DNA from: Hysterangium stoloniferum | Lineage: Eukaryota; Basidiomycota; Agaricomycetes; Hysterangiales; Hysterangiaceae | Direction of reading: 5' to 3' | Assembly: GCA_015178975.1 (NCBI GenBank) | Contig: WHVD01000009.1 | Coordinates: 1,178,001-1,242,000 of the forward strand | Length of the DNA stretch: 64,000 nucleotides | The notes under the pieces: generated by a model | Told to the model about the DNA's origin: nothing | The model's input: the letters and a program-made list of their open reading frames with translations, nothing else | Database searches by the model: none | Made by a program: the position numbers and the translations under genes | Part shown: one piece after another, positions 21,962 through 54,420 of the stretch | How the letters are laid out: each line of letters opens with the position of its first letter | Position numbering within the stretch: position 1 is the first letter of the stretch

Positions 21962-22251
21962 TGTTGAAATATTAGCATTACGTAAGCTACCTTTGGTAAG
22001 CTGGAACGCAGTGTAGGGTAACTGTATAGTTACATTACGCTTATGGATACTATATTAGTATAGAGACCGATCGCGTAGCCTCTCAGTGAAGGTTTATCAC
22101 TCACTGAGAGGTATGCAATTTTCCCCAGTTCTACATTAATAGTTTACTTACTATTAATTCAGTATTATTTAGGTAGATAACAATAGATGTTACAGTGAAG
22201 GTTTATCACTCACTGAGAGTATTATTTAGAACTGCGCAAATAATCTCAACA
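21962..22251 (+). repeat. Cop-1 5' LTR
   Basis: A 290-bp LTR, TG...CA. It contains two copies of a motif built from CAGTGAAGGTTTATCACTC and CACTGAGAG. In the first (about 22080-22110) CTCTCAGTGA pairs with TCACTGAGAG to form a 10-bp hairpin stem; the second (about 22194-22219) keeps only part of the stem. Confidence 0.95.
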
Positions 22252-22264
22252 GGTTATGGGCCCC
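22252..22264 (+). promoter_or_regulatory. Cop-1 primer binding site, initiator tRNA-Met type
   Basis: GGTTATGGGCCCC directly abuts the 5' LTR. It is complementary to the anticodon-arm region of initiator tRNA-Met, the half-tRNA primer used by many copia elements. The match to the exact tRNA of this organism is inferred. Confidence 0.7.
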
Positions 22265-30771: not shown

Positions 30772-31236
30772 ATGTAGGGCAACGCAAATCCAGTACCTTT
30801 ACGTAATATGGGCGCCTATGTCACATGACATGCCCAATGTGCCTTCAGAAAAAAAATTTTTTTTAAAGGAGCAAGGCTAGGAAATATGACAAAAAATTTC
30901 TAAAATTAAAAGAGACCAGGCTTGGCCTTCCTCAAACGTTCTGAGGATATTATCTGGCAGAATTCAATGTCCATGGTATTTTCTGTTTGCCCACACAGCT
31001 TGTGTGTTAAGTTGCATGCAGAGCTTATCAGAGGGTTTCCACAGAAACCTGTGGGAAAGCTGGTAGGACTTGGCTTCAGCTTATAGGCTGTGCCCTCGTG
31101 AGATCATGTCATCCATTTCAGACAGGCAGATGGGAATCCCAGGGAGTCCGGGATTAGTTGGTTGAGAGGTCGGAGGGTCAACTGCAGGAATTCTGCAGAG
31201 GTCGAGAGGTTGGGCGGTGATGAGTCAGAGGTTGAG

Positions 31237-32343
31237 TGTCAGGAACCGGAAAACCCGCCGGCCTCCAGGCCCCCAGACCCTGTCCACATGCTCCCGACCC
31301 TCTATATTGTATAGTTACAACTGGAGTTCCCACCAGAGCCTGCATGTCGACTTGTTTATGCCTGACTCTGTACGCACCCCACCTGTCTGCACCTAACCCT
31401 CTGTGTCTCATACACCAGTCCTCAGACTCCACTGGACTCCGGACTCCACTGGACTCCGGACTCCACTCTATGTACACCCGACACTCTGTGTCTTATGTAC
31501 CAGTCACCGGACTCCGACCAGACTCCTGGAACCCCTCTAACAGAGCATAGAACCCCACTCTTGTTATGATCTGTCTCTGCATATCACACACCAGTCATCG
31601 GAAAACCCACCAGACTCCACCGGACCTCCTGCACATCAAACCTGTCTATACCCGACACTATCTTGTGCACCAAGTCACCGGACTCTGACTGGACTTCTGG
31701 AACCCCTCTAACTGAGCCCCACTCCAGTTATGGTTAAATGACCTGTCATGATTCATTCTCCACTCCCGTTCCATTCCGTCCCTAATTCCCAGTTTAGTAT
31801 TTACTTGTTTCGTTTTATGTTTAATAGTTCTGCCTCTCATTAATACCGGATTTGGTATTATTACATTTCACAGTCTATATAAGTCTGCTATATTCATGTA
31901 CTTAGAATCCAGTTTCAATCTCGAACAAGTTTGTCCCTCAAACTAATTTTCCCCCAAACAAGTTTGACCCTTGAACAAGTTTTCCTTCAATCCCAGTCTC
32001 TAGTCCTCTTGTCTGTCTGCACGCTCGATTCCCGGAACTCCCACGGGAACTCCAGAATCTATATCTCCTTGCATGCATTCTGTCAGTTCGAAATATGGAC
32101 GCCCGAATGAGTGTACGAGGGCGCAGCCTATAAGCTGAAGCCAAGTCCATCTCAGTTGTTACCCTTTCTCTGGTAACTATTCTGACACACCTGTCTTGTA
32201 CTACTAATATCCCCGGAACACTCCCCGGACCTATTGCCCAGGGAGTCTGTGGGACTATTACCCAGAGAGTGTGTGTTCAGAATATAGTTACCGGAGAAAC
32301 CTCCACAGGACGATCCGTGGAGCATTTGTTCATGAACTTAACA
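31237..32343 (+). mobile_element. LTR-B solo LTR, copy 1 (fossil)
   Basis: A 1107-bp TGTCAGGAACCGG...AACTTAACA unit flanked by TTGAG (31232-31236 and 32344-32348). It lies in the opposite orientation to the Gyp-A LTR it interrupts. It contains a TATATAAG box near 31878 and, about 250 bp downstream, the shared motif GGGCGCAGCCTATAAGC. Partly CpG-decayed relative to copy 2. Confidence 0.95.
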
Positions 32344-32544
32344 TTGAGCAATGATAGGTTGGAGGTCGTGTGATAGATAGGTTGGAGCCCATGGACTCTG
32401 ACGAGGTAAGAGCAGTGTGTTTCAAAGAGGAGAATTGAGTGGAAAATATACTGAGATTACTGGGGAGAATCAAAGCTGATTTTCTGACTGGATTGTATGT
32501 ACAACATCTGCCAGACTATATAGACTGTGGAATGTATAACATAC

Positions 32545-33623
32545 TGTCAGGAACCGGAAAACCCGCCGGCCTCCGGGCCCCCGGACCCCATCCTACATGC
32601 TCCCGACCCTCTATATTGTATAGTTACAACTGGAGTTCCCGCCGGAGCCCACACGTCAACTTGTTTATGCCTGACTCTCTGTACACGCCCACCTGTCTGC
32701 GCCTAACCCTCTGTGTCTCATACACCAGTCCTCGGACTCCATCGGACTCCGGACTCCACTCTATGTACACCGGACACTCTGTGTCTTATGTACCAGTCAC
32801 CGGACTTCGACCGGACTCCTGGAACCCCTCTAACAGAGCATAGAACCCCACTCCTGTTATGATCTGTCTCTGCATCTCTCACATCAGTCATTGGAAAACC
32901 CACCAGACTCCACTAGACCTCCTGCACATCAAACCTGTCTATACCCGACACTATCTTGTGCACCAAGTCACCGGACTCTGACCGGACTTCCGAAACCCCT
33001 CTAACTGAGCCCCACTCCAGTTATGGTTAAATGACCTGTCATGATTCGTTCTCCGCTCCCGTTCCATTCCGTCCCTAATTCCCAGTTTAGTATTTACTTG
33101 TTTTGTTTTATGTTTAATAGTTCTGCCTCTCATTAATACCGGATTTGGTATTATTACATTTCACAGTCTATATAAGTCTGCTATATTCATGTACTTAGAA
33201 TCCAGTTTCAATCTCAAACAAGTTTGTCCCCCGAACTAGTTTGACCCTTGAACAAGTGTCCCTTTGATCCCAGTCTCTAGTCCTCTTGTCTGTCTGCATG
33301 CTCGATTCCTGGAACTCCCACGGGAACTCCGGAATCTATATCTCCTTGCATGCATTCTGTCAGTTTGAAATATGGATGCCCGAATGAGTGTACAAGGGCG
33401 CAGCCTATAAGCTGAAGCCAAGTCCATCTCAGTCGTTCTCTCTGTTCTCTGGTAACTATTCTGACACACCTGTCTTGTACTACTAATATCCCCGGAACTC
33501 TCCCCGGACCTATTACCCGGGGAGTCCATGGGACCTATTACCCGGAGAGTGTGTGTTCGGCATATAGTTACCGGAGAAACCTCCGCAGGATGATCCGTGG
33601 AGCATTTGTTCGGGAACTTAACA
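32545..33623 (+). mobile_element. LTR-B solo LTR, copy 2 (fossil)
   Basis: A 1079-bp copy of the same LTR family, flanked by CATAC (32540-32544 and 33624-33628). It was inserted only about 200 bp of Gyp-A sequence away from copy 1. TATATAAG lies near 33172 and the shared LTR motif near 33400. Confidence 0.95.
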
Positions 33624-34261
33624 CATACCAAATCCAGTAATAATGAAATCTAAACTAGTAAATATAAGTAAATACCAGATTTGGTGTTAGAAATGGAATG
33701 GAACAGAGTGGAGTCTGAATCATGACAGGTAGTTAAACCATAATGGGAATGGGGTGGAAACGGAGTCCAAATCCTGACAGGTCATTTAACCATAACAGGA
33801 ACGGGCCTCAGTTAGAGAGCTGACAGGTTTTCTGAGCAGAGTCTGGTGACTGGTATGTGGGACAGGGTTGGAGATAGACAGGAGCAGGTTCTGGCAGGTA
33901 TTCTGGTGACTGATACATGAAGTGATGAAGGTCAAGCATGGACAGGTCTGACATCCGGAGTCCAGCCGGTATTCTGGTAAACTGATAATTGGTGTATGTA
34001 GGGTGGGGGTGCATATAAGTTAGTGCCCAGAGTCTGGTGGGTTTTCCAGTTGTAACAATACCCTCCCTTTATGCTGAAGTCCCAAAGAGGCTCTAGAACT
34101 TGACAAGGTTTTGTTGGTTAAGGGCATGTGTCAGAAAGTCATGTCAGTTACATGTATGTGTCAAAGAGTCACGTGATCTAGAAGGTAAGGTTCAGATGCA
34201 ATGAGCCTATATAAAAAATTGAAAAAATAAGTTTTCTTCTTCTTTATTACCCCCATCATCT

Positions 34262-40178: not shown

Positions 40179-40196
40179 GTCTTAGTCAGAAAATAC

Positions 40197-41076
40197 TGTT
40201 AAGTTGTGTGTGGAGCTTATCAGAGGGTTTCCAGAGAAACCCACAGGAAAGCCAGTAGGACTTGGCTTCAGCTTATAGGCTGTGCCCTCACAAGATCATG
40301 TTGTCCAATTTCAGATGGGTGGATGGGAATCCTGGGGAGTCCAGGAGTAGTAGTTGGTGGGTTGAGAGGTCAGAGGGTTGACTGTGGGGAATTCCACAGA
40401 GGTCGAGAGGTTGGGCAGTGATGAGTCAGAGGTTGAGCAATGATAGGTCAGAGGTCATGTGATAGATGGGTTGGAGCCCATGGGCTCCGATGAGGTAAGA
40501 GCAGCGTGTTTCAAAGAGGAGAATAGAGCAGAAAATATACTGAGATTACTGGGGAGAATCTAAGCTGATTTTCTGACTGGATTGTATGTACAACATATGC
40601 CAGACTATATAGACTGTGGAATGTATAACATACCAAATCCAGTAATAATGAAATCTAAACTAGTAAACATGAAAGAAGATAAGTAAACACCAGATTTGGT
40701 GTTAGGAATGGAATGGATCAGAGCAGAGTCCGAATCATGACAGGTAGTTAAACCATAATGGGAATAGGGCAGAAACAGAGTCCAAATTATGACAGGTCAT
40801 TTGACCATAATGGGAATGGGGCTGAGTTAGAGAGCTAACAGGTTTTCCAAGTGGAGTCTGGTGACTGGTATGTGGGACAGGGTCAGAGATAGACAGGAGC
40901 GGGTTCTAGCAGGTATTCCAGTGACTGATACATGAAGTGATGAAGGTCGAGCATGGACAGGTCTGATGTCCAGAGTCCAGCGGGTATTCCAGTAAACTGA
41001 TAATTGGTGCATGTAGGGTGCAGATGCATATGTATAAGTTAGTGCCTGGAGTCTGGTGGGTTTTCTGGTCATAACA
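40197..41076 (-). repeat. Gyp-A 5' LTR
   Basis: 880 bp, TGTTATGACC...AACTTAACA on the minus strand. It contains CTATATAG (about 40607), a plausible TATA box, and the shared LTR motif near 40265-40310. Confidence 0.9.
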
Positions 41077-41081
41077 TTGAG

Positions 41082-41817
41082 TCCTTTAATATAAGCATCT
41101 ATAAATCTGGCTGATTGGTTTGAATAGCTGAAAAGAAATACAAATGAAATTGTGAATGATTAAAAGGCTAAATGTGTTACTTACCTTTGGATTTGAAGAA
41201 GTGGCACTTTACCAAGACAACTAATGACATTTACTTCCATTTCTTCTATGTTATTTATGGGGATAGTAGCTCGATATATTCTTTGTGCAGCACCCCAGTA
41301 TTGCTCTATAAAGTTCAGCTCACAGTGAAATTTAGGATAAAAATCACAGATATGGCCACACTGTGTGATATACTCCTCTAGTTGATATTTTTGATGCACA
41401 AAGTCTGGCTCAGTGAAAAGGAGCTGCCTGCAACAGCAATCAATCTTTCCAGATTCACACTTGAATCCTTCACATTGTGCATTGAGTCCATCCTTGGGCC
41501 ATTTGCCACATTCCTTGATAATTTATTCCATGCCCTTGAACCAACCAGGCATTATTGGATGATCTTCTGGAAAATAGAAATCTTGAGAAGATTTATCTGG
41601 AAATTGGCCTGGATGCATTTTTGGCCCATTTTTATAATGTGTCCAACCTGCATAGGGATGCTTGGGCATTTTTCATCCTGAGAGAGCATTTAAAGCCCTT
41701 TTATGGTGACTGGGTGCATTGTCAAACAAGAAGAGACCTATTGCATAGCCTTTGGTTTTCCCCTCAAATATATCAATAGTTTTATCAACCTGTTGGATAA
41801 GATCTTCAGCTGAGAAA
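41082..41817 (-). pseudogene. Tc1/mariner-like transposase, C-terminal piece
   Basis: The minus strand reads FLFDNAPSHHKRALNAL (second catalytic Asp in FDNAPSH), then YFPEDHPIMPGWFKGME, a Cys-rich stretch (CEGFKCESGKIDCCCRQLLF) and CELNFIEQYWGAAQR, the position of the third acidic residue in this superfamily. At least two in-frame stops are present, one at 41673-41675. A GTAAGT splice donor follows LLQIQR near 41185. The layout is that of the widespread fungal IS630/Tc1-mariner transposases. Gyp-C separates this piece from the rest. Confidence 0.85.
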
Positions 41818-42381
41818 TGTTACGACCCATTCCCGGATGTTTCAATATCCGACTTCCGATCTTCCACTTTCAATATCCGATATCCAACTACGGAACATCA
41901 TAGTTACCATATCATCCGCATTCTTCGTTTGTTCCGCATTTGGTAATTTGTCCGTTGACAAGTATTCACTCGTTTGTTGTTGTATTCCCGTCTCGGAATA
42001 TTGTCTTCCTAATATGTCTTATTGTATTTCCGATTTAAGAACACTTCCGTTTCCGTCTTATTATGGTCTCAGTTTGTAGTACAATAACGAGTAGACTTAT
42101 ATTAGTTTCCGCGAATTTGTACTTTACTTTAGATCTGATATCGACTTAGTTTCTTATTCCTCCTCCCGTCTTTCTGTACGCTCGATATTCGGAACTCTTC
42201 GGAACTCTGAATATCCATATCTTCTGTCGTTAAGTTCACTTCCGAAATTAAGGACATAGAGCATTTGCGTAGAGGTGCAGCACATAAGCTGAAGCCGACG
42301 TCCTGACCCTATCCACGAGTTTCCGACTTCCCGGTGACTTCCCGATAGTTCCGGAATAAGTTCCCGACACGGCACTTAACA
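41818..42381 (+). repeat. Gyp-C 5' LTR
   Basis: 564 bp. It contains the shared LTR motif at about 42250-42305, with an outer stem AGGACAT...(A/G)(T/C)GTCCT, and many TTCCG motifs. Confidence 0.97.
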
Positions 42382-42415
42382 GTATATCAGATCTCAACTC
42401 TGCGACTCGCTCATC

Positions 42416-43639
42416 ATGGGTCCCAAACGCAAAGCTGCCGAAGGACCATCCCAACTTCAATCCCTGTTGCAACTTTACACCACCCAACCTGAAACCCCAA
42501 TTCAGCCGACAACATCAGCTTCTGTCGAAGAAGTTACCGAGGAGGTTACCGAGGTAACGAAGGACACCAATGTTCCCCACACTACCGACAACGAAGCAGA
42601 AGATCAACCGGATACATCGACAAAACCCTCCGATGATCAAACTGGAATGTTGCTTTTTAACTCCATTTCCAAATTCGCTGATTACTTGAAATCCGCTGAG
42701 GATAGTAAAGAATCATCCCGCACCGGAGTCAAAGAACCCAAACCATTTACCGGCAAGGATCCGAAAAAATTGAAGAATTTCCTTCTTCAATGTCGTTTCA
42801 GTTTCCGTGATCGACCCAATGCTTTTAAATCCGACAGTCGAAAAGTCAATTTTGCGCTCTCATATCTCAAGGATACCGCTCAGGATTGGTTCGAACCCGG
42901 ACTATCCGGATTATCTGACGAGACACCTGTATGGCTCGACGACTGGGATGCTTTCGTGGAAGAACTGGAAACTAATTTCGGACCTTACGATCAATCCGGC
43001 GAAGCAGAAAACGAACTAATGACGCTCAAGATGAAGGACAAACAACGAGTTTCCGATTATCTCGTCAAGTTCAATACCCTCGCCGCACAATGTGGATGGG
43101 ACGATTCCGCCCTCAGGCACCATTTCTATATGGGACTTCCGTCACGCCTTAAAGACGAAATCTGCAAAAATGGGAAGCCAAAAACTCTCCAACTCATGCG
43201 GATGAAAGCTCAAACATCCGATGCCCGTTATTGGGAACGAAAAGCCGAGGTCTCTCGAGAGAACCCGATGGAACGTTCTCAGAACAACAAGGCGTCGACT
43301 AGCAAGTCTTCCGGCAACAACTCAGGCAATAATACCGGCTCTGGCACTAATACTGGCAAATCAAATTCTGACCGGAAGAAAGACAAGAAATCCAACAAGG
43401 AAAAACAGTCAACTTCCGACAAACCCGACATTTCCCATTTGTTGGGTACTGACGGTAAACTCACCCCAAAGGAGAAACAACGGCGTATGGACAACGACCT
43501 CTGCCTTTTCTGCGGAAAAGGCGGACACAAGGTTTCCAACTGTACCGTTAAATCTAGCTCTTCCAAGGCTCGCGTGGCAACTTCCACTACGACTACAACG
43601 TCTAAGGATAAACCTGCCACGGAGTCGAAAAAAGAGTAA
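42416..43639 (+). CDS. Gyp-C gag, 407 aa (fossil)
   Basis: Retrotransposon capsid protein. The capsid-type domain spans about residues 95-280 (DTAQDWFEPGLSGL near 157, WDAFVEELETNFGPY near 183, FYMGLPSRLKDEI near 240). A Ser/Asn/Lys-rich linker follows, then a CCHC zinc knuckle CLFCGKGGHKVSNC near residue 363. The frame is open throughout and its length is normal for the family. It starts 35 bp after the 5' LTR. The pol frame begins just downstream in a different frame. Confidence 0.92.
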   Translation: MGPKRKAAEGPSQLQSLLQLYTTQPETPIQPTTSASVEEVTEEVTEVTKDTNVPHTTDNEAEDQPDTSTKPSDDQTGMLLFNSISKFADYLKSAEDSKESSRTGVKEPKPFTGKDPKKLKNFLLQCRFSFRDRPNAFKSDSRKVNFALSYLKDTAQDWFEPGLSGLSDETPVWLDDWDAFVEELETNFGPYDQSGEAENELMTLKMKDKQRVSDYLVKFNTLAAQCGWDDSALRHHFYMGLPSRLKDEICKNGKPKTLQLMRMKAQTSDARYWERKAEVSRENPMERSQNNKASTSKSSGNNSGNNTGSGTNTGKSNSDRKKDKKSNKEKQSTSDKPDISHLLGTDGKLTPKEKQRRMDNDLCLFCGKGGHKVSNCTVKSSSSKARVATSTTTTTSKDKPATESKKE

Positions 43640-43779
43640 GCAACCCTCCGGAATCTGCACGGACAGAGGGTTGCGTTGACTCTCTCCGTGTTTCCGAGGT
43701 TGTCCGTCTCAACGCGTCCGCTCTCTCTAATCCCGATTCATTATTTGTAAAACTCGTCTCTGACTTTCTTGGAAATTTA

Positions 43780-46700
43780 GTGTTCCGAGCTCTAATAGAT
43801 TCCGGCTCCACACACTGTTTTGTAGATACCACCTTTGCCACGAAACATAATCTGAAACTCCATTCTGTTCCCGCAATTTCCTTGCGTTTGTTTGACGGCA
43901 CTAGCAATACGGCAATTACTCAAGCCTGCAACATGTCTATCCGGTTCCCTTGTGGAACATCCCAGACGGTTACATTTTTCGTAACACAGTTGGACTCTAG
44001 CTGTTCGGCAGTTCTTGGATACAACTGGCTCACCCGATATAATCCGTTGATTGACTGGGTATTGGGCAGTATTACTTTCCAGACTCACGACACTTCCGTT
44101 CCTCCTGCAGCGTCTATTCCGGCCAATGCCTTTTCGGCATCAACGGCATCTCCGGCTTCTATTGAAACTTCCAAGCCCCCAAAAATCTCTCTCATCAACG
44201 CTTCGGCATTTGTTAGGGCGAGTAAACTGGATGGTTCGCAATGTTTTTCGATCAGCTTAAAAGTTGATGAAGCATCTGGACGTTTTGCGACTCCAGAATT
44301 ATCCGAGCTAAAAGCCGATCTGGAAGGAGTTCCCGAAAAATACCATGATTTCGCGGACATTTTCAGTAAGCAAAAAGCTGACAGGCTTGCACCACATAGG
44401 CCCTACGACTTAAAAATCGATATTGAGCCCGGTTCAAACCCTCCATTAGGACCTATTTACCCATTATCCCAATCGGAACTTTCGTCTATTCGGGAGTTCC
44501 TGGATGAACATTTGTCGATAGGTTTTATCCGTCCCTCAAAGTCTCCGTATGGAGCACCCGTCCTTTTCGTCCGTAAAAAGGATGGCTCCCTTCGACTCTG
44601 TGTCGATTTCAGAGGATTAAATTCCATCACACGGAAAGATAAGTATCCACTCCCACTTGTTACCGACTTACTCGACGCCCCACGGAAAGCTCGAATTTAC
44701 ATTAAAATAGACCTCAAACACGCCTATCATTTGGTTCGAATTGCCGAGGGTGACGAATGGAAAACTGCTTTTCGGACTCGCTATGGATCCTTTGAATGGT
44801 TGGTTATGCCGTTCGGCCTTACCAACGCCCCTTCCGCTTTTCAATGTTTTGTTAATGATATATTTTCCGACATGCTTGACGTATGTGTTATAGTCTATTT
44901 GGACGACATTTTGGTATTTTCCAAGGATCCCGCTCTTCACGATGAACAGGTCCGTGAAGTCTTCCGAAGACTCCGTAAAAACGGTCTTTTCGCCAACGGT
45001 AAAAAATGTTATTTCGACATGGATTCTATTGAATACTTAGGTTTCATCATCGGCCCTGATGGTCTCCGTATGGATGAAACCAAGGTTCAAGTTGTCCGTG
45101 ACTGGCCCGAACCACGGAAGGTCAAGGACATTCAATCATTTTTAGGTTTCGCCAACTTTTACCGTCGTTTTATTCGGAACTACTCGGATATTACAGTACC
45201 GCTCACTTGTCTTACCCGTAAAACTCAACCATGGGTTTTTGACGATAAATGCCGCTCCGCTTTCCAGACTTTGAAAAATGCTTTCACTTCGGCCCCGATT
45301 CTTTCCCATTGGAAACCTGATTTTCCGATTATTGTGGAAACCGATGCTTCCGATTATGCAATTGCCGCGATTCTTTCCATTCAAGAGTCCAATGGTGAAA
45401 TTCATCTGGTCGCATTCCTTTCTCGGACACTTTCAGTATCCGAACTCAATTACGACGTTCATGATAAGGAACTTTTGGCAATTTTTGAAGCTTTCAAACA
45501 TTGGCGCCATTATCTCGAAGGTTCCGCAACTCCCGTTGACGTCGTTACTGATCACAAAAATCTCGAATATTTTTCTACCACTAAACTTTTGACCCACCGG
45601 CAGGCCCGTTGGTCTGAATTTCTTTCCGCTTTCAACATGATTATCCGTTTCCGACCCGGACGTCTTGGTGGAAAACCAGATGCCATGACTCGACGATGGG
45701 ACGTCTATCCTAAAGAGGGGGAAAGTAACTACGCTGTTGTTAATCCACATAACCTGAAACCGGTTTTTACAACGCAACAACTTTCCGCATCTATCCGAGC
45801 AACTTCCCTTTACTATCCAATTATGCGAAGCGTCATGATTATGGACATTGAGCAATTACATCAAGATATCCTTTCCGCACTCACTTCCGACCCGGCCCTC
45901 AAGCCACATTTAGACATTCCCGACAATTCCAACCAACCCCGATGGTCACAAGACTCTCAAGGTTTTATCCGTCTCGATGGACGTATCTACGTTCCAGATT
46001 CCGACAATCTTCGACTCCGCATACTTCAGTATAAACACGATCATCCAATCTCCGGACATTACGGCATCAACAATACTCTTGGTTTAATCCGTAGAGAATA
46101 TACTTGGCCCAACCTCCGAGATTTCGTAACTCAGTTCTGTAAGTCATGCACCACCTGCTTACGCTCCAAAACCCAGAGGCATAAGCCGTACGGCCTCCTC
46201 AAGCAACTCCCGATACCAGAAAAACCTTGGAATTCAATTTCCATGGATTTTATCGAACAACTCCTGACTTCCGAAGGCTTTACATCCATTCTAGTCGTTG
46301 TGGACCGATTCTCGAAACAAGGCATTTTCATACCCACTCATGATACAATCACGTCCTTACAATTAGCGGAACTTTTCATTATTCACGTATTTTCCAAACA
46401 CGGAGTTCCATCTCACGTAACTTCCGATCGAGGCTCCAAGTTCATCTCCCATTTCTTCCAGGCCCTCGGAAAAGCCCTCGACATGAAACTACACTTCACC
46501 TCGGGATATCACCCGGAAGGTGATGGACAAACGGAACGCGTTAATCAAACACTGGAACAATATCTCCGCATCTATTGTAATTACCAACAGGACAACTGGA
46601 AATCCCTTCTTCCGATCGCGGAATTCGCCTACAATAACTCCCCGAATGCAACCACCGGCATATCTCCCTTCTTCGCCAATAAAGGCTATAATCCGAATCT

Positions 46701-46908
46701 CACAGTACATTCCGAACGAGATTTGGCTTCTGTCCGTGCTCAAGAATTTATTACCGACCTCGACGAATTACATCAAGAACTTCGGAAAGCTATTTCTTTC
46801 GCACAGGAACATTATCAATGTTCCGCGGACAAAAACAGGATCCCGCCTCCTAATTTTAAAGTTGGTGATCAGGTTTTTGTAAAAGCTCAATTCTTCCGTA
46901 CTACCTGA
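43780..46908 (+). CDS. Gyp-C pol, 1042-aa open frame (fossil)
   Basis: Polyprotein in the usual Ty3/gypsy order. Protease ALIDSGSTHCFVD is at the start. Reverse transcriptase follows with [11 protein letters not shown] near 270 and YLDDILVFS near 375. RNase H has ETDASDYAIAAILS near 520. The integrase zinc-binding region has HDHPISGHYG near 755 with its CxxC near 790. The integrase core has MDFIEQL near 825, VTSDRGSKF near 880 and GYHPEGDGQTERVNQ near 910. The catalytic motifs are visible. The chromodomain lies in the adjoining open stretch 47002-47325. Confidence 0.95.
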   Translation: MFRALIDSGSTHCFVDTTFATKHNLKLHSVPAISLRLFDGTSNTAITQACNMSIRFPCGTSQTVTFFVTQLDSSCSAVLGYNWLTRYNPLIDWVLGSITFQTHDTSVPPAASIPANAFSASTASPASIETSKPPKISLINASAFVRASKLDGSQCFSISLKVDEASGRFATPELSELKADLEGVPEKYHDFADIFSKQKADRLAPHRPYDLKIDIEPGSNPPLGPIYPLSQSELSSIREFLDEHLSIGFIRPSKSPYGAPVLFVRKKDGSLRLCVDFRGLNSITRKDKYPLPLVTDLLDAPRKARIYIKIDLKHAYHLVRIAEGDEWKTAFRTRYGSFEWLVMPFGLTNAPSAFQCFVNDIFSDMLDVCVIVYLDDILVFSKDPALHDEQVREVFRRLRKNGLFANGKKCYFDMDSIEYLGFIIGPDGLRMDETKVQVVRDWPEPRKVKDIQSFLGFANFYRRFIRNYSDITVPLTCLTRKTQPWVFDDKCRSAFQTLKNAFTSAPILSHWKPDFPIIVETDASDYAIAAILSIQESNGEIHLVAFLSRTLSVSELNYDVHDKELLAIFEAFKHWRHYLEGSATPVDVVTDHKNLEYFSTTKLLTHRQARWSEFLSAFNMIIRFRPGRLGGKPDAMTRRWDVYPKEGESNYAVVNPHNLKPVFTTQQLSASIRATSLYYPIMRSVMIMDIEQLHQDILSALTSDPALKPHLDIPDNSNQPRWSQDSQGFIRLDGRIYVPDSDNLRLRILQYKHDHPISGHYGINNTLGLIRREYTWPNLRDFVTQFCKSCTTCLRSKTQRHKPYGLLKQLPIPEKPWNSISMDFIEQLLTSEGFTSILVVVDRFSKQGIFIPTHDTITSLQLAELFIIHVFSKHGVPSHVTSDRGSKFISHFFQALGKALDMKLHFTSGYHPEGDGQTERVNQTLEQYLRIYCNYQQDNWKSLLPIAEFAYNNSPNATTGISPFFANKGYNPNLTVHSERDLASVRAQEFITDLDELHQELRKAISFAQEHYQCSADKNRIPPPNFKVGDQVFVKAQFFRTT

Positions 46909-47001
46909 CCTTCTAAAAAACTCGCTGAGAAATTCTTAGGACCTTTTGAAATTATAGCACAAGCCGGTTCACTTTCATGGACTCTCCGTCTTCCCGACAG
47001 T

Positions 47002-47325
47002 ATGCGAGCAGTCCACCCCATTTTCCACGTTTCCATGTTAGAACCTTGTGTTCCCAACTCATTCCCGGAACGTACTCAACCTCCGTCCCCTCCGGTCATC
47101 ATTGATGGAGAACCCGAATTCGAAGTTTCCGAAATATTGGATTCTAAAATCGACAATCGTCGACGTACTTGTGAATTGCTCTATTTAGTTAAATGGGCAG
47201 GTTATGAAGGTACCGACGAGGAAACTTCATGGATATTGGCCACGGAACTTGGACATGCTATGGAAATTGTTACTGACTTCCACACGGCTTATCCAGGCAA
47301 ACCCGGACCTTTATCATCACTCTAA
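47002..47325 (+). CDS. Gyp-C integrase C-terminus and chromodomain (fossil)
   Basis: Open stretch with VHPIFHVSMLEPC (end of integrase) and a chromodomain (FEVSEILDSKID, LLYLVKWAGYEGTDEETSW). In chromoviruses this domain directs integration to marked chromatin. It is the C-terminal part of pol. Confidence 0.9.
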   Translation: MRAVHPIFHVSMLEPCVPNSFPERTQPPSPPVIIDGEPEFEVSEILDSKIDNRRRTCELLYLVKWAGYEGTDEETSWILATELGHAMEIVTDFHTAYPGKPGPLSSL

Positions 47326-47415
47326 TCTTTCTGTTCCTTTCTGATCAACTTCCGACACTTCCATTTTCACACTCGTTTTAGGTTTTGCAAGTCAAAAAAA
47401 AAATATTATTAAAAT

Positions 47416-48558
47416 CTATCTTAAAGTCTCTGACACCCCAAATCCACCTTCCGTCCCAACCTCCGGCTCTTCAGCAATTTCCGCACTTTCCACCATATCC
47501 TGTACCTCCTCATCTTCACTCTCCTCTTTTCCTGACCCCCATCTCCGCTCCACACACTCCGCCAATGGATCGTTCGACTGGTTTTTTGCCTTATCGGCAA
47601 ATCGTTCAGATACCGCGATTACACCGATACTAACCATCATCTTCTCCAGGAAATCGTTTTGCCTCCGGAAATTCCGGACCAATGAACGGAAACCCTTCTC
47701 CTGGATCTCATTATGGCGATCCAGTGTTTCCCGCATTTCCCGCATTTCAACCCCGATGAAGACCATTGTATCAACCAATTCCTTAAGGAGCTCAACGCCC
47801 ATACCATCCGTACTCGGCAACTTAGTTTCTGCAGTTTTGGTCGCTCCTGAACCTTCCGCGATGGTAGGTTTTTGAGCCTTTTCGCTTTTCGGAACCCTTT
47901 TCGCAGCAAGAGTGCACGGAAGTTTGAGGACCGCGCAAGGATAACAAGTTCCACCCCATTTTACCTTCTGCTTCCAACAAGTTATATTCCGTACGGAACA
48001 TCGAGCACATGGAGTGTCATGGGCAATTTCCATCCGTTCTGGAGCTTTGACCTTTGGTTTCTGTTTCGGAAGTTAAACGACTACCGTTCCCGTTACAGAT
48101 ACACTCACTTTAGGACTCGAAGGCCCAGCTTCTCCCTCTACTTCCACCTCCACGGCTTTTCGCTGTACGTAACAGTTATCGGTTGGAACCACGGAAATCT
48201 ATGGAATTGGACTCACCTTTCCTTCCCTTACCTCCTTACGTTTTTCCGCCGCCTCAGCTTCTTGTTGTTTCCACACTTCTTCTTCCTTCAACCTCCGATC
48301 CTCCATCACTTTCCGCAACCTCGCCAACTCTTTTTCTTTTTCCGCCTTCACCCGCTCCAATTCCCGCTTCTCCGCCTCCTCCGCATCTTTCAACTCCTGC
48401 ATCAACGCTCTTTCCTCCTCCTCCTGTCGTCGCTTCAACTCCTCCATTTTCTGGCGTTTTTGTTGAAGTTCTGCGACCTTCGACATCTTTTGAAGTACGG
48501 ATATTTCGGTATCTGAGTCTTCCGGGGTAGTGATGAACAACGGCCGACGAATCGACAT
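47416..48558 (-). CDS. Gyp-C antisense gene-like segment (fossil)
   Basis: Opposite to gag-pol, between the chromodomain and the 3' LTR, are two open stretches. 48558-48199 (119 aa) is a strongly charged coiled coil (ELQQKRQKMEELKRRQEEEE). 48033-47416 (205 aa) begins with a Cys cluster (CARCSVRNITC, then CYPC and a further Cys), continues helical, and ends acidic. A GTGAGT donor follows the first stretch (about 48212), so splicing is likely. The Cys pattern recalls fungal zinc-binding modules, but the assignment is uncertain. Gyp-A has a counterpart. The function is unknown. Confidence 0.6.
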
Positions 48559-48743
48559 ACAAGTTGTGGTTGAAGAAACAAAAACGTTAAATTCGAATAT
48601 TTGGAAGTTTTTATACTCAGAATAACAGCCGAAACTCTCACCTCCATATTTGCGTAAATTTCACGACACATAACAATCAGCCGTCGCTTCAAACACTCAG
48701 TACCTAATCGCCTCTATGGGATTTCGGCCTAACAGGGGGGTAC

Positions 48744-49307
48744 TGTTACGACCCGTTCCCGGATGTTTCAATATCCGACTTCCGATCTTCCACTTTCAAT
48801 ATCCGATATCCGACTACGGAACATCATAGTTACCGTATCATCCGCGTTCTTCGTTTGTTCCACATTTGGTAATTTGTCCGTTGACAAGTATTCACTCGTT
48901 TGTTGTTGTATTCCCGTCTCGGAATATTGTCTTCCTAATATGTCTTATTGTATTTCCGATTTAAGAACACTTCCGTTTCCGTCTTATTATGGTCTCAGTT
49001 TGTAGTACAATAATGAGTAGACTTATATTAGTTTCCGCGAATTTGTACTTTACTTTAGATCTGATATCGACTTAGTTTCTTATTCCTCCTCCCGTCTTTC
49101 TGTACGCTCGATATTCGGAACTCTTCGGAACTCTGAATATCCATATCTTCTGTCGTTAAGTTCACTTCCGAAATTAAGGACATAGAGCGTTTGCGTAGAG
49201 GCGCAGCACATAAGCTGAAGCCGATGTCCTGACCCTATCCACGAGTTTCCGACTTCCCGGTGACTTCCCGATAGTTCCGAAATAAGTTCCCGACACGGCA
49301 CTTAACA
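48744..49307 (+). repeat. Gyp-C 3' LTR
   Basis: 564 bp, preceded by a G-rich polypurine tract (48735-48740) and followed by the target duplication AGAAA. It differs from the 5' LTR at about ten sites. Confidence 0.97.
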
Positions 49308-50676
49308 AGAAATATCCATCTTGGTTTTTCCCAGCTTTGAAGATAACACAAGCTTCCCTGTCATATTATCAGAGAAATACCATACTGTAACAGCCTAAGA
49401 AGACTTACTGATCTCCATCCTTCAATTGGCCCCATTTAGATGTTAGAAAATCAGAGACCATTAATGATACACCTTCACCCTTTGGTTTAGGGATAGCCAC
49501 CTGATTTAAATGGATCCATTTAGTTTTTCTATGATCATTAGCATATAAAGTAGATTCATCATGAGTCACTGCTATAATCCTAAACCATCCATCAGATACT
49601 GGGTAGCCTTTTGGCTCTATTGGATTTCCATCATTGTCAAAGGTAACCATTCACTTTGAATATCCTTGCCACTGCTCTAAGAATCCTTTGTAGTAGAGAA
49701 CAACATCCCCCCACCCATGACCATCAATGTACATTTCCATTTGATTTCTTCCCATATCTCCAGCCCATCTTCTGCAACCAGTTTCAAGCAGTCCTAATTA
49801 ATATTCCCTTTTTTTTTTCCCAGGTATATGGCAACTTATTTCTTCTGATGAGACAAAATCAACAATGTCTTGAGCATTAATAATGCCATCTTTTCCTTTT
49901 TCAAGAAGATAAAGTTGAATTAATTGACAAAAATCTTCATCTTGGAGAAGTGATTGGGATCTTCCATAATGGTGTGTTGGTAGATTGCCTGTTGTCAGAT
50001 ATCGGTGAATCCAAGTTTGGATTCTTCTTGCATGATAAACACCATGACCAGCAGCCTTGGCAGCAAGAAGTGAAGCTTCCCTCCATCCATAGGACAGGGT
50101 AGAATCCAAATACAAGTTTAATGTGCCTACCATGAGTCAAGCTCTGAGAAAGACATCTACTTTTGGATCTTTGTCTTTCACTGTTAACTTTGCACAGGCC
50201 TGCTACAATGTTGGAAAATCACAATAATCCATAAAGGCAAGTGCAATATCTGATGATGATTCAATGCTGTAATCACCATATGAGCAAAGCATGTCCTGAA
50301 GTTTCTCATGCATTGTCAATGTGGCTTTCTGGCTCTGTTTGACAGAAGGTCCTTGAATTAGTTCCTGATCACTGTTTCCAACAGTATTACTTTCTGCCTC
50401 TTTATCCACCATCTCCCCTTCTTGGATTTCATTCATCAAATCCATTTCTTCAATGTAGAGATCCTACTAATTGATTCTTAGCAAGTAAATCAGAGTGACT
50501 TTAGAATGAACATGATATGTATATACCTCTATTTCTGCTCCATCAGGCCCAGGTTCCTTGCCTGGTGAATATGAAAGTGAAACATCTCTACAGTTCTTTT
50601 TCTTGAAATGATCTGTGATGAATTTTGTTTTCCCTCCTGTACAATCTTCTGCCTCTTTGCAGCATATCTGGCCATG
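49308..50676 (-). pseudogene. Tc1/mariner-like transposase, central piece
   Basis: The minus strand holds a DNA-binding, helix-turn-helix-like region (STLSYGWREASLLAAKAAGH, ARRIQTWIHRYLTTGNLP) at about 50130-49960. The first catalytic motif follows, VTHDESTLYANDHRKTKWIH (49570-49510), then PKPKGEGVSLMVSDFLTSKWG. Several in-frame stops interrupt the stretch (for example near 50200, 50150 and 49700), and a likely intron starts at GTATATACAT near 50525. In living relatives the HDES motif supplies the first acidic residue of the DDE triad. Decayed and CpG-poor. Confidence 0.85.
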
Positions 50677-51399
50677 TGTTACGACTGTGTCGCAACCCTT
50701 CACACGCCGACGGTCCCCGATGGTATACCCTCGTTATACGTCTTCGACAATACAAGATCTCAGAAGCCGTCAGTCCCCCGACGCTGACGTATGCTCTCCG
50801 GTCAATCAAACCCGACTACGCCTTTCTGTCTGGTTATGCTTTGATACGTCCTTTTCATTATGTTGATCCGTTCCACTCTATGTTTCACATATGTCTATCT
50901 ATATTTGTAGTCCTCGAACTATTTCCTTTTATCGTAATTTCCATTCTCGGTTATCATCGGCCTCCAAACTAATCATAAACTTCCCGTTCCTAGTCAAGCT
51001 TAATGTTAATACCGTTTTCCGCCCTTCTCCCCATTAGTACTTTCTAGATGCCTGTTACTTGTATATGAGCCCGCTATAGTTGTAGTTACTAGGCAATCAG
51101 AATATCAACTCAGAATACCCTCATACGTCTGTAGCAGTCTCATACTAGAAGAATCCCCTTTCCGCCTTTGCGTGCACTCGCCCACTCTCGGCCCCGATCC
51201 CTTGGCCCGACACTTGACTTGTCCTTCAGTTCCGATTGGTATCTCGCCGAAAGGTTCTTCTTAGGATTTAGTCTTCACCTGTCTGAAATTTAAGGACAAC
51301 CTACGGATATTTGCGAGGGCGCAGCACATAAGCTGAAGCCAAGTCCTCCCGATCGGTCCCCATCGGCCACCGACATTAGTCAGTTTCTAGTTCTTAACA
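50677..51399 (+). mobile_element. LTR-D solo LTR (fossil)
   Basis: A 723-bp TGTTACGACTGTG...GTTCTTAACA unit flanked by CCATG (50672-50676 and 51400-51404). It contains the shared LTR motif at about 51289-51342 (AGGAC...GTCCT outer stem) about 60 bp before its end. CpG-rich, so younger than its Tc1/mariner host. Confidence 0.95.
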
Positions 51400-51896: not shown

Positions 51897-53019
51897 TAAA
51901 TGTAGACATATTAGATATGTAAATGTGAAGTACTGTTAGGGTGCATACACAGTGGGTTTCCAGAGAAACCCATGGGATATCTGGTAGGACTTGGCTTCAG
52001 CTTATAGGCTGCGCCCTCACGAGATTGTGTTGTTCAATTTCAGACAGGCAGACAGGAATCCCAGGGAGTCCAGGTGGGGTTTGTGGGTCAAGGGGTCGTA
52101 GGTCGGAGGTCGTGGGTTGAGAGGTCGGGAGTCGGGATAAATAAGAGAGATATGTAGATGTGCTGGAGCCCATGGGCTCTGACTAGCATGAGCAGTGTAA
52201 TTCAAGTAGGAGTTTAGAGCGGAAAATGTATTAGATTACTGGGGGGAATCTGTAATGTATTAGCCTTATTATAATATTATTTTCTGGAAAAAGGAGTCCA
52301 ATGCTCTATCAAAGTGTGCAAATACTCAATTCACTACAAGGTAAAATAATTTAAGTATTTGATATTAATCAGTGGCAGCCTAAATAGACTTAGAACCCCT
52401 GAAGTCAAGAGTTTACTTGAATATATGCACCCTACTTTGCAAAGAAGGTTTTGAGAGCTGCTTGTGCAAGCTTGTTCTTTTTCTGTGATAACAACTACTA
52501 AAATAAGAATAACAATTTACTGATTCCAAAGCTAGATTTAACTTCAATGCTAGCTAGTTTATATATATTTTATACTATTTGTCAAACAGTAAAAATATTT
52601 ATAAACGGGTCAAAAGATTAGATATAGAATAAAACACTATTTGGCTAATATATGCTTTATTTACACTAATCTACAGGGTCTACTGTGATACTAACTTATC
52701 AGGATCTTAATGTAGTCTTAGGATCTTGCAAGGATATTCTCAGTATTTATTTATGTGAATATGCTTTACTGATTCACAATAAATGAGCAAGGGAACAGGG
52801 ATTATTTGTAATATAATAATCAGTCAAATTACTCAACAAGAGGTGACTGAAGTTTTAGATTACAAATAACAAGAAATGTAACAAGGATTACTTGCAATGT
52901 AATAATCAGTCAAATTACTCAACAAGAGGTGACTGAAGTCTTAAACTACAAATAACAAGATATGTAACAAGCAGTCAAATTACTCAACAAGAGGTGACTG
53001 TGGTACAAAGGATTAATGC

Positions 53020-53223: not shown

Positions 53224-53544
53224 TAAGAGGTGGCAATAAACTGCTAGCTGCAGTGACACACTGATGTGTTGATAAATTGGTTGATAAGATTGGTTTTATT
53301 TCATGGCTGGAGCAGAGCTCCTTATATACACTGAGATGTGAGACATTTAGAGACATATTGAACTTTATTTCTATCCTATTTTAGCTATTTTACTTGGAAT
53401 GTTTTAGACATTTCTGCCATTCTCTATTGTAGCATATATGATGACATAATGTATGACATAATATTCCCAGATGACATAACATATGACTTAATATTCCTAA
53501 ATGACATATTGTATGACATAATATTCCCGCGCTAGTGCGCGTGT

Positions 53545-54240
53545 GACACCTGTCGCGCCTTGTGACTATCGCGCGCCTTTTGTGACTGTCGCGCGCCCTT
53601 GTGACTGTCGCGCGCCCTTGTGACTGTCGCGCGCCCTTGTGACTGTCGCGCGCCCTTGTGACTGTCGCGCGCCCTTGTGACTGTCGCGCGCCCTTGTGAC
53701 TGTCGCGCGCCCTTGTGACTGTCGCGCGCCCTTGTGACTGTCGCGCGCCCTTGTGACTGTCGCGCGCCCTTGTGACTGTCGCGCGCCCTTGTGACTGTCG
53801 CGCGCCCTTGTGACTGTCGCGCGCCCTTGTGACTGTCGCGCGCCCTTGTGACTGTCGCGCGCCCTTGTGACTGTCGCGCGCCCTTGTGACTGTCGCGCGC
53901 CCTTGTGACTGTCGCGCGCCCTTGTGACTGTCGCGCGCCCTTGTGACTGTCGCGCGCCCTTGTGACTGTCGCGCGCCCTTGTGACTGTCGCGCGCCCTTG
54001 TGACTGTCGCGCGCCCTTGTGACTGTCGCGCGCCCTTGTGACTGTCGCGCGCCCTTGTGACTGTCGCGCGCGCCCTTGTGACTGTCGCGCGCCCTTGTGA
54101 CTGTCGCGCGCCCTTGTGACTGTCGCGCGCCCTTGTGACTGTCGCGCGCCCTTGTGACTGTCGCGCGCCCTTGTGACTGTCGCGCGCCCTTGTGACTGTC
54201 GCGCGCCCTTGTGACTGTCGCGCGCGCCCTTGTGACTGTC
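53545..54240. repeat. 19-bp GC-rich minisatellite, about 36 copies
   Basis: The unit is GACTGTCGCGCGCCCTTGT, nearly perfect, with two places where an extra CG or GCGC is inserted (about 54070 and 54222) and a degenerate first unit. It is extremely CpG-rich within an otherwise AT-rich insert. Open frames on the minus strand are an artefact of a stop-free unit. Confidence 0.97.
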
Positions 54241-54420
54241 ACTCGTTGTGACGATGGTCACTCGTTGTGACGATGGTCACTCGTTGTGACGATGGTCACT
54301 CGTCGTGACGGCCGGTCACTTTGTTGTGACGTCCGGTCACTTGTTGTGACGACCGGTCACTTGTTGTGATGACAGGTCACTTGTTGTGACGACCGGTCAC
54401 TTGTTGTGACGAGTATTCCC
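54232..54420. repeat. GTCACTCGTTGTGACGATG / GGTCACTTGTTGTGACGACC repeats
   Basis: About nine units of 19-20 bp in which GTCAC and GTGAC form small inverted repeats. They adjoin the 19-bp array and share its TTGTGAC core, so the two arrays probably have one origin. Confidence 0.85.

Follow-up and report, generated by a model that had tools for sequence, protein, structure and literature searches.

Several families of long terminal repeat (LTR) retrotransposons in the fungus Hysterangium stoloniferum carry one short, shared motif, and the question raised by this locus is what such a motif does in leaders that for the most part do not align. The locus is a 64,000-nt stretch of contig WHVD01000009.1 (assembly GCA_015178975.1, forward-strand positions 1,178,001 to 1,242,000), here called the window; one genome was used throughout, in which complementarities, positions and conservation were computed. 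Judged from sequence, the motif probably forms the hub, on the LTR side, of an RNA fold by which these Gypsy retrotransposons self-prime their reverse transcription. The RNA would begin about 30–35 nt past a TATA-like box, its first 11 nt would pair with the primer-binding site (PBS) just beyond the 5' LTR, and the segment immediately 5' of a conserved hairpin (segment J) would pair with sequence just 3' of the PBS. This would gather self-primer, PBS and hairpin in one place, the hairpin directly next to the long-range helix, and a cleavage after nucleotide 11, as in Tf1, would then free the primer. That such a fold forms, and that priming depends on it, is inferred.

Tf1 is the system in which self-priming is known in detail. 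It has been reported that the first 11 bases of Tf1 pair with the PBS and that the cut falls between bases 11 and 12 (PMC7175516); that self-priming needs three duplexes, two of which join PBS-adjacent and LTR sequences (PMC10085805); that the same mechanism is proposed for Tj1, which has a 5-bp target-site duplication (TSD) (PMC4600332); and that hairpin priming has been noted in chromoviruses (PMC3601003). For elements other than Tf1, these texts deduce self-priming from complementarity and predicted folds (PMC10085805, PMC4600332). The simplest account of the shared motif is that it is probably the LTR side of this published fold.

The Motif and the Families That Carry It

The motif is a 22-mer, G(C/T)(G/A)CAGC-NN-ATAA-GCTGAAGCC, common to all eight copies in the window, where eight matches with at most three mismatches were found and dinucleotide shuffles gave 0 in 100. 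Six copies had been named in the original prediction, and all six were recovered in place by sequence and pattern match; two more had been overlooked, at 31072-31093 and 51993-52014, both on the minus strand. In the genome (111,116,353 bases, 554 contigs), 10,344 matches with at most two mismatches were counted (5,196 + 5,148), about 1 per 11 kb, while the reversed pattern under the same limit gave 1 (1 + 0); the GGYR form, to which the preceding G is added and in which no mismatch is allowed, gave 7,936. The exact pattern had 0 matches in viral_contigs. At motif letters 2-3, many sampled copies have GTG or GCA instead of GCG, and these variants are a mark of decay at methylated CpG.

The sample is non-random and consists of 355 kb of fetched DNA including the window, mostly picked around matches, plus 12 short loci. 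Its 138 raw copies were reduced to 124 by removing 13 opposite-strand echoes and one chance match (L026); the 124 copies gave 122 distinct sequences and 119 alignment rows, three that could not be anchored being dropped (L009 on the minus strand, L043 minus 9891 and L040 plus 1214). The sample holds families A (Gyp-A), B (LTR-B), C (Gyp-C) and D (LTR-D), as well as a fifth, E, with CAAC...GTTG in the stem, so that the four families first described stand and at least one is added. Family labels were assigned by eye from motif context and then BLAST-checked on leaders. k-mer clustering gave five groups of at least three copies and six single copies, with a few A/B copies in neighbouring groups; under single linkage, one cluster took in 111 of 114 copies.

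The families had been called dissimilar, and across families the leaders of 13 five-prime copies (250 bases before the self-primer through the LTR end; BLAST, E value 1e-3) match only in 23-69 nt around the motif. The exception is the promoter part of A and B, where the leaders are also alike up to the RNA start (67-86%); within the window, the similarity of A and B is 75-77% over 199 bp.

Self-Primer, Primer-Binding Site and Predicted RNA Start

In Gyp-C, the 11-mer AGATCTGATAT at 42131-42141 is complementary to ATATCAGATCT, which lies two bases past the 5' LTR end. Among the 117 motif copies having a downstream TAACA, 13 carry in their leader an 11/11 reverse-complement of the sequence at offset 2 past the LTR end; offsets 0, 1, 3, 4, 5 and 6 yield 0, 1, 2, 0, 0 and 0 such copies, and the controls give 0 (reversed only), 0 (complement only) and 1 (identity). 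These 13 five-prime LTRs belong to A (5), B (1), C (4), D (2) and E (1) and use five different 11-mers. Because the elements were recovered by the 11-mer match itself, they speak for presence in five families and not for frequency; B and E rest on one five-prime copy each, and solo or 3' LTR copies are unable to show the match. A search for any 11-mer complement in the whole sample returned 227 against 214 for the reversed control, a count swamped by inverted repeats, and the test was therefore limited to motif copies.

A TATA-like box precedes the 11-mer by 33 nt in A, C and D, by 30 nt in E and by 35 nt in B; it reads TATT in two A copies, and some copies have more TATA or TATT within 60 nt. 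Two separate signs, the TATA spacing and the match of the 11-mer to the PBS, thus agree on the RNA start. In the 13 five-prime LTRs, the motif is found 135-293 nt downstream of this predicted start and 81-224 nt before the LTR end, which places it within the putative RNA. This had been claimed in the original prediction, with a distance of 250-320 bp below the TATA-like box; the values are close to that, LTR-B having about 245 nt and Gyp-A 326 nt. It had also allowed for transcripts starting downstream of the motif, and the predicted start lies on the upstream side instead. Taken together, the 11-mer, the PBS and the TATA-like box form a sequence signature of self-primed (Tf1/sushi-type) reverse transcription. 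The bases right after the self-primer are alike across families in the 13 elements (CGACTTAG in C, with close variants elsewhere) and are perhaps part of the cleavage site.

Predicted Long-Range Pairing of Segment J

All 24-nt windows of the leader were tested for pairing with the 30 nt after the PBS, with 500 shuffles each, the helix being scored without pseudoknot modelling. Segment J, which lies just 5' of the hairpin, was the best leader partner in 11 of the 13 elements, J accounting for 17 of the 207-364 leader windows. The median shuffle p by family was 0.006 in A, 0.018 in B, 0.006 in C, 0.020 in D and 0.078 in E (Fisher combination over the family medians, 9e-6). In the 12 elements of families A to D, the helix starts 3-5 unpaired bases past the PBS and ends flush at the hairpin. 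The reverse search, over the first 300 internal bases, gave 10 of 13 elements in which the best partner of J overlaps the sequence after the PBS. In a cross-family table, all five post-PBS sequences score highest with the J of their own family; the representatives used here and in plain folding were better-preserved copies, and the main J test was rerun on all 13. The long-range helix can be extended by the GGAC strand of the outer stem in three C copies and in two A copies, L020 and L045.

This family-by-family match bears on a packaging or translation function, in which the hairpin would mainly be an encapsidation signal for Gag/nucleocapsid and the post-PBS pairing would be secondary. The hairpin does sit in the 5' leader, its loop and bulge letters are nearly fixed, and families A, C and D share the motif and the same Gag domains; encapsidation signals of Ty1/Ty3 are a known class (PMC4974528). 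However, a family-by-family match between the post-PBS sequence and the segment next to the hairpin is not expected from a packaging signal, and we regard this function as unlikely to be the main one. The self-primer and the long-range pairing explain the motif better than the interpretation put forward in the original prediction.

Hairpin and Outer Stem

The hairpin has the form GGC-R-CAGC-(NNATAA)-GCTG-AA-GCC. Three pairs (GGC/GCC) make up its base and four its upper stem; between them lies a 1-by-2 internal loop, with R facing AA, and the stem is capped by six loop bases, of which ATAA is near-invariant. The hairpin is enclosed by an outer GGAC/GTCC stem, the 5' spacer measuring 17-29 nt and the 3' spacer 2-3 nt, and YYGAAAT is conserved upstream, except in L051-L054, which lack it. 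With its fixed NNAUAA loop and AA bulge, the hairpin may serve as a docking site for the reverse transcriptase/RNase H of the element or for Gag. The same loop invites another reading, since in retroviruses the polyadenylation signal can lie in a hairpin of R; the hairpin would then present AUAA in the R region for polyadenylation or 3' processing. The near-invariant ATAA and the retroviral precedent fit such a role, but J and the outer stem would be unexplained, and the motif lies anywhere between 81 and 224 nt from the LTR end, so that it seems very improbable.

That the motif can fold, as had been predicted, is supported by alignment A2 (28 rows, 25 distinct), in which 97.1% of cells are paired, a value reached by 0 of 500 shuffles, while sliding the partner by 1-3 columns gives at most 36%; the covariation score of A2 is above that of all shuffles. 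The outer stem was counted on the hand-anchored 119-row alignment; alignment A1 misplaced its 5' strand. In plain folding of five representatives, the 4-pair stem has a probability of at least 0.97 in four, the exception being E, and pairing of the self-primer with the PBS comes out as almost certain in B, C, D and E.

Family-level changes also speak for pairing. The hairpin G-C pair has become A-T in family E, in 348 exact copies; the single mutants number 83 and 62 and the copies with G-C kept 7,936, and under independence less than 1 such double change would be expected. These 348 copies are largely one family and thus one or few events. With a looser pattern, 98 of the 100 listed places at which both letters of the G-C pair are changed are A-T. 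The hairpin A-T pair, where both letters are changed in an otherwise exact pattern, is T-A in 4 of 4 cases (two subgroups, one small family). The outer stem of E has an extra pair, GGAGC/GCTCC, formed in 10 of the 12 rows having it.

The outer stem had been described as differing by family in a way that looked like covariation. It does differ by family, with three details corrected: in Gyp-A, GGAC/GTCC alone pairs, with a T/T mismatch next to it and a T-A beyond; of the two Gyp-C copies, the one in the 3' LTR (ATGTCCT) fits the AT/AT extension and the one in the 5' LTR (ACGTCCT) does not; and the LTR-D-type AAGGAC/GTCCTT is exact in 19 of the 124 sampled copies, the window copy having GTCCTC. 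As for the covariation, a home-made tree-aware test on the 119 rows, with 60 simulated alignments, bore it out only in part, giving an E value of 0.03 for the second outer extension pair and of 0.08 for one hairpin pair; another hairpin pair reached 0.47, and the other 11 pairs gave none.

Symmetrical changes in the inverted repeat CAGC/GCTG could also follow a dimeric DNA-binding protein, in which case CAGC-N6-GCTG would be a site in DNA for a host or element protein, such as a regulator, and old copies indeed show no selection for RNA pairing. But the internal loop is asymmetric (R against AA), only one of the two outer-stem spacers is variable (17-29 nt), family E has an inserted outer-stem pair, and the match between J and the post-PBS sequence spans the LTR end, all of which make a DNA site improbable.

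The original prediction also named in-line cleavage as something to check. Retrozymes are LTR elements with hammerhead ribozymes, and a compact conserved RNA fold in an LTR recalls them. However, no Rfam covariance model matched at gathering scores in the whole window, and none matched with E values up to 5 in 32000-32400, which holds one LTR-B copy; the likeness to retrozymes thus extends to structured RNA in LTRs and not to a ribozyme family. A cut here would moreover sever the leader between self-primer and PBS, and a self-cleaving ribozyme is hardly conceivable.

Evidence That Weighs against the Proposed Fold

Several results weigh against the self-priming fold with J and hairpin at its hub. 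In the cross-family table, the J of A and of B pair better with the GC-rich post-PBS sequence of C, and the J of E with that of A. In element window_m_40285, J is not the best partner (p 0.13), the best window lying downstream of the hairpin, and the single E copy is weak (p 0.08), its best window lying two bases outside the J limit. In the reverse search, three elements (window_m_40285, L004_p and the E copy) have a better partner for J than the post-PBS sequence, 176-227 nt further on. A duplex with the LTR end, as in Tf1, ranks 1 (8 pairs) in L004 and 3 in L016 among the D copies and has no consistent place in the other families.

The structural evidence has similar gaps. In A2, neither the number of pairs changed on both sides nor the number of further pair types goes beyond the shuffle range (64 and 372 of 500 shuffles, respectively). 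The outer pair with the E value of 0.03 owes its sole both-side branch to AA -> CC, which is not compensatory, and the first outer extension pair is formed in just 57 of 119 rows. Two of the 100 listed G-C changes are T/T, and in a search that demanded GG and put no condition on the partner, the A of the A-T pair is changed in 41 cases and compensated in 0. In plain folding, the GGC/GCC base is strong in one of the five representatives, and the self-primer/PBS pairing has a probability of 0.04 in the A copy. Selection on pairing in decaying copies, under which wobble should exceed mismatch, was considered and not seen: wobble is not favoured among single mutants of the G-C pair (62 G-U against 83 A-C), and those of the A-T pair number 11 A-to-G against 7 T-to-C. 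This is the expectation if most copies are decaying neutrally. Covariation of hairpin and outer stem, taken alone, is modest, and the support for structure consists of a few family-level changes rather than strong statistics.

Comparison with Known Self-Priming Elements

The elements resemble the Tf1/sushi chromoviruses (S. pombe Tf1/Tf2, S. japonicus Tj1 and S. osmophilus Tosmo1-3) in the 11-nt self-primer at the predicted RNA 5' end that is complementary to the PBS, in the "pretzel" duplex between LTR and PBS-adjacent sequence, and in the chromodomain and Tf2-1-like SH3 domain of Gyp-C; Gyp-C and LTR-D share with Tj1 a 5-bp TSD. Unlike the Tf1 group, compared by descriptions, the LTR strand of the duplex adjoins a hairpin that is conserved across families with non-aligning leaders and present about 10,000 times in this genome, and the Tf1-type duplex with the LTR end has no consistent place beyond the D copies. 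In retroviruses, the U5-IR pairs sequences flanking the primer site; Lin and Levin in 1998 reportedly found a Tf1 counterpart of this stem-loop, an RNA structure needed for initiation. The present fold would likewise be an RNA structure near the PBS; in contrast, hairpin and J are here 81-224 nt before the LTR end.

The pretzel fold itself is already known, and it is the sequence-conserved hairpin at its hub that lacks a found description. In the parts of the literature that were accessible, no hub hairpin conserved nearly letter by letter was found described; the Tf1 structure paper was not covered, and Tf1 may have a counterpart. Searches on motif fragments returned, in what was accessible, only papers on porcine coronavirus. 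More tentatively, and with considerable doubt, the motif could stand for a new class of RNA recognition element, conserved in sequence, that marks a self-priming lineage, the leader toggling between a local and a long-range fold. The local fold would be the outer GGAC/GTCC stem, and the long-range fold would be J, in some copies with the GGAC strand, joined to the post-PBS stretch close to the start codon; the choice would decide between translation and self-priming of an RNA. The suggestion comes from geometry, because a J helix of 12 pairs, joined to the outer stem by 0-3 nt, looks hard to accommodate alongside that stem.

Five LTR families of one genome, in which primer, PBS and helix letters have changed and the hub hairpin is nearly fixed, offer a natural experiment on the RNA features recognised by the self-priming machinery. 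The 22 letters and the fold are a simple tag for finding self-priming elements, and the motif predicts the RNA start, the binding site and the helix partner.

Elements of the Window

The features are listed in Table 1. The 5' LTR of Gyp-C has its partner at 48744-49307 (98.2% identical), with the TSD AGAAA on both sides. The domains of the element are Gag, protease, reverse transcriptase, RNase H, integrase, SH3_Tf2-1 and chromodomain, by which Gyp-C at least classes as a chromovirus. The chromodomain PF00385 is above its cut-off in Gyp-C (46909-47322) and in L042; in the B integrase piece in L044, SH3_Tf2-1 is below its cut-off and no chromodomain was found.

Table 1. Coordinates of the motif-bearing elements and their parts in the window.
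Element	Feature	Coordinates	Strand	Basis or remark
Gyp-C	5' LTR	41818..42381	+	564 bp; self-BLAST, sequence
Gyp-C	TATA-like box	42098..42101	+	33 nt before self-primer
Gyp-C	Predicted RNA 5' end and 11-nt self-primer AGATCTGATAT	42131..42141	+	11/11 complementary to PBS
Gyp-C	Conserved YYGAAAT, upstream of outer stem	42242..42248	+	alignment
Gyp-C	Outer stem P1, 5' strand GGAC	42252..42255	+	
Gyp-C	Segment J (last base is also hairpin base)	42256..42274	+	pairs with post-PBS sequence
Gyp-C	5' LTR conserved hairpin P2/P3	42274..42296	+	
Gyp-C	Outer stem P1, 3' strand GTCC	42300..42303	+	
Gyp-C	PBS, after LTR-end CA then GT	42384..42394	+	
Gyp-C	Post-PBS sequence, partner of J	42398..42413	+	
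Gyp-C	Integrase C-terminal SH3_Tf2-1 and chromodomain	46909..47322	+	Pfam PF24626 8.4e-16, PF00385 5.9e-07
Gyp-C	3' LTR hairpin copy	49200..49222	+	pattern match
Gyp-A	5' LTR	40197..41076	-	
Gyp-A	Self-primer AGTCAGAAAAT	40568..40578	-	TATA 33 nt upstream
Gyp-A	Outer stem P1, 5' strand	40303..40306	-	sequence; register from sampled copies
Gyp-A	5' LTR conserved hairpin	40264..40286	-	pattern match
Gyp-A	Outer stem P1, 3' strand	40258..40261	-	sequence; register from sampled copies
Gyp-A	PBS	40184..40194	-	
Gyp-A	3' LTR hairpin copy, overlooked earlier	31072..31094	-	pattern match
LTR-B copy 1	LTR, within Gyp-A 3' LTR	31237..32343	+	self-primer 11-mer 31911-31921, as in L044
LTR-B copy 1	Hairpin	32120..32142	+	pattern match
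LTR-B copy 2	LTR	32545..33623	+	self-primer 11-mer 33204-33214, as in L044
LTR-B copy 2	Hairpin	33397..33419	+	pattern match
LTR-D	Solo LTR, TSD CCATG	50677..51399	+	self-primer 11-mer 51095-51105, TATA 51062; 11-mer as in L004, L016
LTR-D	Hairpin	51318..51340	+	pattern match
Gyp-A-type LTR	Hairpin in another LTR, overlooked earlier	51993..52015	-	pattern match

The 3' LTR of Gyp-A (31005-34058) is interrupted by both LTR-B copies, which look like separate insertions because about 200 bp of A sequence lies between them. A Copia-type gag-pol reading frame occupies 22244-25135. Before 31072, there are zero motif matches at up to three mismatches; the motif is therefore perhaps restricted to Gypsy elements in this DNA.

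In the sample, the single copies L045 5270 and L043 9228 and the small group L051-L054 may be further families. The hairpin of L051-L054 is CTGC...GCAG, with an outer stem of the AGGAC/GTTCT type (AGGAT in one copy), and the 11-nt self-primer was not found in the three distinct copies tested. L034, L035 and L040 hold long stretches of tetratricopeptide repeats (TPR_10/TPR_12, nephrocystin-3-like), which suggests an expanded host family. Within the window, a tandem array with a 19-bp period lies at 53466-54300.

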